From: Trichocoleus desertorum NBK24
GTDB taxonomy: Bacteria; Cyanobacteriota; Cyanobacteriia; FACHB-46
Reading direction: 5' to 3'
DNA: 64,000 bases
Assembly: GCF_030409055.1 (NCBI RefSeq)
Contig: NZ_CP116619.1
Coordinates: 3,883,628-3,947,627 of the forward strand
The notes below the pieces were generated by a model that was not told where the DNA came from, did not search any database, and was given only the letters and a program-made list of their open reading frames with translations. Position numbers and translations under genes: made by a program. How positions within the stretch are numbered: the first letter of the stretch is position 1; every line of letters begins with the position of its first letter. Below, one piece after another: positions 54,155-56,150 of the stretch.

Positions 54155-55132
<978 letters not shown>

Positions 55133-55270
55133 ACAGGCCATAAAACTGTTCAGCCAGCGTGCTGCATCTTATGATTTTGGATGCCTTTTCACTCAATACG
55201 CTGTTAAACGAGAACTAGCTACGGGCACTCTCTAAATTGAGAGGCAACGAGATAGCTTGAGGAAACAGTT

Positions 55271-55618
55271 GTGGATGATGCATTCAGAAAAGTTGCAGCC
55301 TTGGGGTTGCCTGGGGTAATGCTTGTGATTGCAATGGCTACTACAGGCTTTGCTGGAGCTGCTGCAATCACAACTGCCCTTGCGGTCCTAGGTGGCCCTT
55401 TTGGCATGCTTGGTGGCATAGGAATTCTAGGAATCACAGCCTTAGTGGCTGACTCTTTGGCAAAAGTTGGCATTGAAGGTTTCCTTAGAGGCATCTACTG
55501 TGAACGTAGAAAAGCTGAATCCCGCGAGCGACTTGTGCGGGAAATTCAGGGATTGCCAATTTCGGATGACCTGAAGAGATTGCTTAAAGATGTCGTGGGT
55601 TCTGGGTGTGGTTGCTAA
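55271..55618 (+). CDS. glycine-rich two-helix membrane protein, partner of a nuclease-like gene
   Basis: 115 aa, GTG start with GAGGAA six bases upstream. Residues 10-65 form one long hydrophobic region, dense in Gly/Ala (LPGVMLVIAMATTGFAGAAA, LGGPFGMLGGIGILG), likely two helices with a tight turn. Residues 76-112 are charged and helical (CERRKAESRERLVREIQGLP, DDLKRLLKDVV), ending in CGC. I recognise no named family. It lies 12 bp before the nuclease-like gene on the same strand, so they form a two-gene unit. Confidence 0.7.
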   Translation: MDDAFRKVAALGLPGVMLVIAMATTGFAGAAAITTALAVLGGPFGMLGGIGILGITALVADSLAKVGIEGFLRGIYCERRKAESRERLVREIQGLPISDDLKRLLKDVVGSGCGC

Positions 55619-55630
55619 CCCTCAAATATC

Positions 55631-56074
55631 ATGCGTAGAAAGAAAGCTAACCCCCTACAACGCCTACTCAAGAAGTCGGTCTCAGATTTTAACCAGAATT
55701 TAGAGAATTTTTTAGTTGATACGTTGATTGAGGTCACGCCAGAACCTCTAAAAGAATTTGTAGAGAGTTCTTTTGATAGGAGACAAACTGGGAGAGAAGC
55801 TGAGTACCGCGATAGGTTAGCTGCGAAACTAAAAGGCAAGATTGAGGTTCAAACTCCAGACGGTAGAATCGATGTTCTTACGAAAAAAGAAGTTATCGAA
55901 GTTAAGTGTGCGCCGGATTGGAAGCATGGGCTTGGACAAGTTTTAGCCTATAGCAAGTACTATCCCTCTCACCAAAAGCGGCTGCACTTATACGGAGAAG
56001 TGACTCCGCAAAAGTTGAGGCAAATCAAACAGCAATGCCAAAGCCATGAGGTAGCTGTGACTTGGGAAAAATAA
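55631..56074 (+). CDS. small PD-(D/E)XK nuclease-like protein
   Basis: 147 aa. After a basic helical N-terminus (RRKKANPLQRLLKKSVSDF), the C-terminal half fits a PD-(D/E)XK nuclease core of the RecB/Cas4 pattern: Glu58 in GREAEYRDRL, Asp81 in DGRIDVLTKKE, Glu90-Val-Lys92 (IEVK) and Gln103-x3-Tyr107 (GQVLAYSKYYP, motif QxxxY). It ends with a predicted helix (TPQKLRQIKQQCQSHEV). No helicase or SSB-binding part is attached. The family is not named here; whether it cuts DNA, RNA or nothing is unknown. Confidence 0.7.
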   Translation: MRRKKANPLQRLLKKSVSDFNQNLENFLVDTLIEVTPEPLKEFVESSFDRRQTGREAEYRDRLAAKLKGKIEVQTPDGRIDVLTKKEVIEVKCAPDWKHGLGQVLAYSKYYPSHQKRLHLYGEVTPQKLRQIKQQCQSHEVAVTWEK

Positions 56075-56103
56075 TTTTGCTTTATTGTGATTTTTCAAAG
56101 AGC

Positions 56104-56150
56104 TTAGCGATCGCCCTCTTCCTCTCAAATTAGGCAAGGGCGATCGCTAA
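56104..56150. terminator. HIP1-containing hairpin between convergent genes
   Basis: Perfect 14-bp inverted repeat TTAGCGATCGCCCT/AGGGCGATCGCTAA around a 19-base loop, between the nuclease-like gene and convergent gdhA. Each arm holds a full HIP1 octamer. Confidence 0.6.

Follow-up and report, generated by a model that had tools for sequence, protein, structure and literature searches.

The window, a 64,000-nt stretch of the complete 5.46-Mb chromosome of the cyanobacterium Trichocoleus desertorum NBK24, carries two small genes, A and B, which lie on one strand, separated by a 12-nt spacer, between a GDP-fucose-synthase-like gene and a glutamate-dehydrogenase-like gene (flanking names assigned by eye). 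Both genes sit where the original prediction placed them (Table 1), and no terminator-like site was found between them on their strand. Searches of Pfam, NCBIfam, PHROGs and the PADLOC defence-system models returned nothing significant for either protein, and the A and B profiles had no meaningful match among the sequences of solved structures. The two are nevertheless not chance open reading frames, since A-family and B-domain homologues each occur in 49 of 388 genomes of the class. Protein A has the Gly/Ala-dense hydrophobic half and charged helical tail originally described for it (Gly plus Ala fraction, 0.29; best 19-residue Kyte-Doolittle mean, 1.89). Its AlphaFold2 model is all-helical and of low confidence, with a mean pLDDT of 72.5 and values of 53-61 over residues 21-50.

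Table 1. Features of the A-B locus, in window coordinates
Feature	Position	Strand	Description
ORF A	55271..55618	+	GTG start, 115 aa; small protein, hydrophobic and rich in Gly and Ala, ending in a charged helical tail; candidate membrane partner
ORF B	55631..56074	+	ATG start, 147 aa; N-terminal basic amphipathic helix and PD-(D/E)XK nuclease domain
N-terminal helix module of B, residues 1-32	55631..55726	+	NPLQ type; also on HNH nucleases in three other genomes
PD-(D/E)XK core of B, residues 51-147	55781..56071	+	Order a-b-b-b-a-b-a-b; E56, D81, E90, K92, Q103, Y107
Segment with A and B	55129..56105		~977 bp; sister species carry ~127 bp of unrelated intergenic DNA here

Two congeneric genomes, ~84-94% identical in DNA sequence around the site, both lack A and B. 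As both sister species lack the segment at the same position, the simplest account is that A and B were gained together in one insertion of ~1 kb; loss of the pair in both sisters is possible and less economical. The same comparison makes the adjoining surface-polysaccharide cluster, which had been read as a usual place for accessory genes, incidental, because both sisters carry the cluster yet lack the pair. At positions 55118-55164 lies a 19-nt inverted repeat (89% complementary) that is not seen in the sisters; the fucose-synthase-like gene ends in its left arm, and its right arm lies at the left edge of the segment. Elsewhere in the genome of a sister species (locus L016, G001:C52), an A-family copy has decayed and contains two stops.

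Fold, active site and relatives of B

Alignment of its homologues delimits the B domain to ~95 residues, among which E56, E72, G78, D81, E90, W97 and Y107 are invariant or nearly so. D81, E90, K92, Q103 and Y107 are present in B and largely conserved; the K92 position is occupied by lysine in most homologues, by glutamate in one and by arginine in another. The RecB/Cas4-type pattern of the original prediction is thus borne out for D81, E90-V-K92 and Q103-x3-Y107. A conserved upstream glutamate also exists as predicted, but it is E56 and not E58.

The predicted structure points in the same direction. An AlphaFold2 model built from eight sequences has a pLDDT of ~95-98 over residues 61-147, and structure prediction, proposed at the outset as a check on the 147-aa protein, finds a PD-(D/E)XK core with high confidence, including the a-b-b-b-a-b arrangement that defines the superfamily. 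Foldseek alone gave weak PDB matches (best E 0.13), and VIA-align was needed as a second look; it placed NucS (2vld, Z 10.2) and EndoMS (5gke, Z 10.1) nearest to B, with 87-89 residues superimposed at 2.2-2.5 Å, followed by AF1548, CdiA-CT DNase toxins and Can2/Card1. The NucS residue set E127, D160, E174, K176, Q187 and Y191 (PMC7343888) has its counterparts in the upstream glutamate, D81, E90-x-K92 and Q103-x3-Y107 of B. Given this NucS-like residue pattern and fold, B is a RecB/NucS-type PD-(D/E)XK protein whose active site is predicted to be intact. With NucS/EndoMS and other RecB/Cas4-type nucleases it has in common the fold and the pattern E..D..ExK..QxxxY; however, sequence similarity to solved NucS is undetectable, and the N-terminal DNA-binding domain of NucS is absent, a short amphipathic helix being found instead. 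A relative of B from another genome gave a weak Cas4b match in PADLOC (E 7.6e-4).

The B domain is patchily distributed, since 16 of 50 genomes in the family of genome G230 contain a match. Phages and plasmids encode it too, on proteins whose N-termini are of KilA-N, Rha-like or winged-helix type (domain names assigned by eye). The nuclease domain of these cyanophage and plasmid proteins is homologous to that of B, but they have other N-termini and no Gly-rich partner. On two viral contigs (L119 and L121), a B-domain gene immediately precedes a RecT/Bet-like recombinase gene (identified by eye). Genome sampling outside the cyanobacterial class covered B only.

The N-terminal helix module and its Gly-rich partners

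The N-terminal ~30 residues of B make up a basic amphipathic helix with the consensus NPLQKLVRxAIRD; the 18-residue helical moment of this module is 0.50-0.68. Its carriers are either PD-(D/E)XK nucleases or, in three genomes, HNH nucleases. The closest stand-alone homologues of B, which belong to family f31, each lie directly after a gene for another Gly/Ala-rich hydrophobic protein, C, at a distance of 2-49 nt or overlapping it. A search with C revealed, beside three C genes, small proteins that have a B-type N-terminus but an HNH domain. This domain was confirmed (E 3e-16 to 2e-14), and in PADLOC these proteins match generic HNH parts only. In an hmmsearch, the module profile recovered two HNH proteins that had been left out of its construction (E 1.7e-9 and 9e-8).

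All 12 non-redundant module nucleases (nine PD-(D/E)XK and three HNH, the window pair included) lie immediately downstream of a small hydrophobic ORF rich in Gly and Ala, as against 0/40 control B-domain proteins without the module; the Fisher P of 2e-8 is only a guide because related sequences are not independent events. The same Gly-rich pairing criteria are satisfied by 12 of 1033 background ORFs. An automatic recount of the PD-(D/E)XK set returned eight pairs out of nine, the one miss stemming from how the start codon was called in L260. Of the 12 pairs, three were retrieved via C and are therefore not independent evidence for a C-nuclease linkage, and two of these three were found again without C, by a search with the module only. 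When the 31-residue module alone was run against 199 genomes, C not being used, it gave three strong matches, all of them in Gly-rich pairs. The originally proposed unit of a Gly-rich, membrane-like protein and a nuclease does recur, then, but the exact combination of A with B does not.

For protein C, comparison with known family libraries gave nothing above cut-off; one C protein weakly resembles the TcdA/TcdB pore domain family, at an E of 0.005 that does not reach the Pfam cut-off. No C gene was found on viral contigs or plasmids, where an HNH search of the plasmids returned generic HNH proteins. The window's own genome encodes a C-like Gly-rich domain within a 383-aa protein that has a PspA-like coiled region (by eye; L249:1399-2550, G000:C1:2192501).

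A relationship between A and C was considered and rejected by profile comparison (hhalign probability 1.6). The usual partner C not being homologous to A, protein A looks like a substitute for it. A third small Gly-rich protein, D, neighbours A in two genomes and C in two, and this common neighbour hints at an equivalent role for A and C. At one locus (L002:658-1839), A is followed in the same gene run by D and next by an LRAT-like protein, whose Pfam match (E 2e-4) falls slightly short of the cut-off.

The A family comprises cyanobacterial proteins of ~110 aa at no fewer than 79 named GTDB loci. At none of 79 such loci does a B domain occur within flanks of up to 8 kb; A is therefore not a general partner of B, and conserved A-B pairing as such, expected from the original prediction, must be rejected. 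No A-family gene was found on viral contigs. Twelve loci place the gene inside peptide natural-product clusters (among them L070, L077, L080, L081, L127, L129, L157 and L185): in microviridin-type clusters it lies between ATP-grasp, GNAT and ABC-transporter genes, and in anabaenopeptin-type clusters between hphB/hphCD-like genes and an NRPS gene (cluster types assigned by eye). Fusions also occur, of an A-like domain to an endonuclease/exonuclease/phosphatase-like domain (by eye; L065:1238-2530 and L066:1958-2857) and to a C-terminal domain rich in conserved W, H and R (L067:2143-2778, L068:2138-2743 and L073:2392-3045). At L065, L078, L079, L155, L013 and L149, A-family genes adjoin dynamin-like or other GTPases and TerB-like proteins (by eye), neighbourhoods of a kind known from conflict systems.

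A putative membrane-docked nuclease and its alternatives

We propose, at a confidence that stops just short of even, that A and B represent one cassette of a cyanobacterial two-gene unit with swappable parts, in which the gene for a small Gly/Ala-rich membrane protein directly precedes that for a small DNase, and that the nuclease, docked at the membrane, cuts DNA passing through it, likely on its way in. The small Gly/Ala-rich protein (A or C) would sit in the membrane, as its hydrophobicity suggests, and the basic N-terminal helix of B would dock the nuclease either on the membrane or on A. This docking step we consider rather probable; we infer the anchoring from the hydrophobicity of A and the amphipathic helix of B. 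Docking would keep the nuclease away from the nucleoid, and the docked enzyme would cut DNA crossing the membrane, most likely that of an incoming phage or plasmid, an anti-invader role that we put forward tentatively. The nuclease domain behind the NPLQ module is exchangeable, being of the PD-(D/E)XK type here and of the HNH type in three other genomes. More speculatively still, the units may constitute an undescribed modular family, in which Gly-zipper-like membrane proteins of two unrelated families, A and C, guide a helix-docked PD-(D/E)XK or HNH nuclease to membrane-crossing DNA as a form of innate immunity. No description of this gene pairing was found among open-licence papers and family libraries.

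A precedent exists in SNIPE, a nuclease at the inner membrane whose anchor prevents cutting of host DNA and which cuts phage DNA during injection (PMC13190303). The A-B type of unit would resemble it in having a membrane-held nuclease and a variable membrane-targeting part. However, SNIPE is one protein with transmembrane, DUF4041 and GIY-YIG parts, whereas the present unit is split over two genes and uses a PD-(D/E)XK or HNH nuclease; Pfam finds neither DUF4041 nor GIY-YIG, the domains that mark SNIPE, in A or B. The combination of a constant N-terminal part with exchangeable nuclease domains also recalls polymorphic toxin and effector systems such as CdiA-CT (PMC3482391). Those systems possess a large secreted carrier and an immunity gene, but the module nucleases have no such carrier, and across the pairs no conserved gene, and hence no conserved immunity gene, follows the nuclease.

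Selection on the pair bears on the defence reading. Within one genus, pairwise comparison gives 0 nonsynonymous against 5-20 synonymous changes for C, which has no amino-acid change in eight species, and 0-4 against 5-12 for B; protein-level constraint thus acts on both. Among the species of one genus, the C-B pair also stays together while the gene upstream of it changes from species to species. An arms race does not usually leave such strong purifying selection behind, and this counts against defence. The C-nuclease pairs have mostly housekeeping genes as neighbours, and the defence-gene neighbourhood that the original prediction had proposed as a test was not seen in the flanks examined. 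Given this selection and these neighbours, the unit may instead serve DNA maintenance or uptake. The competence and pore ideas of the original prediction are not supported by direct evidence. A conserved housekeeping or DNA-handling function at the membrane (contact between nucleoid and membrane, for example, DNA repair close to the membrane, or the processing of DNA that has been taken up) would accommodate the constraint on C and B, the ordinary neighbours and the mismatch/repair nuclease that is the nearest fold of B. We nevertheless regard it as unlikely, if still a serious competitor: housekeeping genes are rarely as patchy as this one is within a single family, the window pair is missing from both sister species, and the nuclease type is swapped between units.

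The pair might instead act against its own host, the Gly-rich protein disturbing the membrane or forming pores in it and the nuclease destroying host DNA, with abortive infection or suicide as the outcome. The weak TcdA/TcdB resemblance of one C protein, the exchange of effector-like nuclease domains, the CdiA-CT toxins among the fold matches of B and the dynamin-like and TerB-like neighbours of A homologues would all fit such an effector. However, the pore match lies below threshold, the pair is not accompanied by a conserved sensor, regulator or immunity gene and no trigger component was identified, so that we think this explanation improbable. Also against our preferred reading are the many other contexts in which A homologues sit and the fact that A adjoins B in the window genome only. 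These would be expected if a stand-alone A-family gene, of a kind usually found alone or with other genes, had merely landed beside a mobile B nuclease gene, whose domain travels among phages and plasmids. Yet B carries the N-terminal module that otherwise always follows a Gly-rich hydrophobic gene, A and B appear to lie inside one inserted segment, and they are 12 nt apart on the same strand; chance adjacency thus seems to us an outside prospect.

The cutting of incoming DNA by nucleases held at the membrane has recently been recognised as a means of discriminating self from non-self without sequence marks. If the membrane-docked reading of A and B is true, they would represent a second, unrelated design of membrane nuclease, split over two genes and built from exchangeable parts, and the strategy would have evolved more than once. 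It would also offer proteins that are small and simple to test, from cyanobacteria, a group in which defence systems have been little studied.
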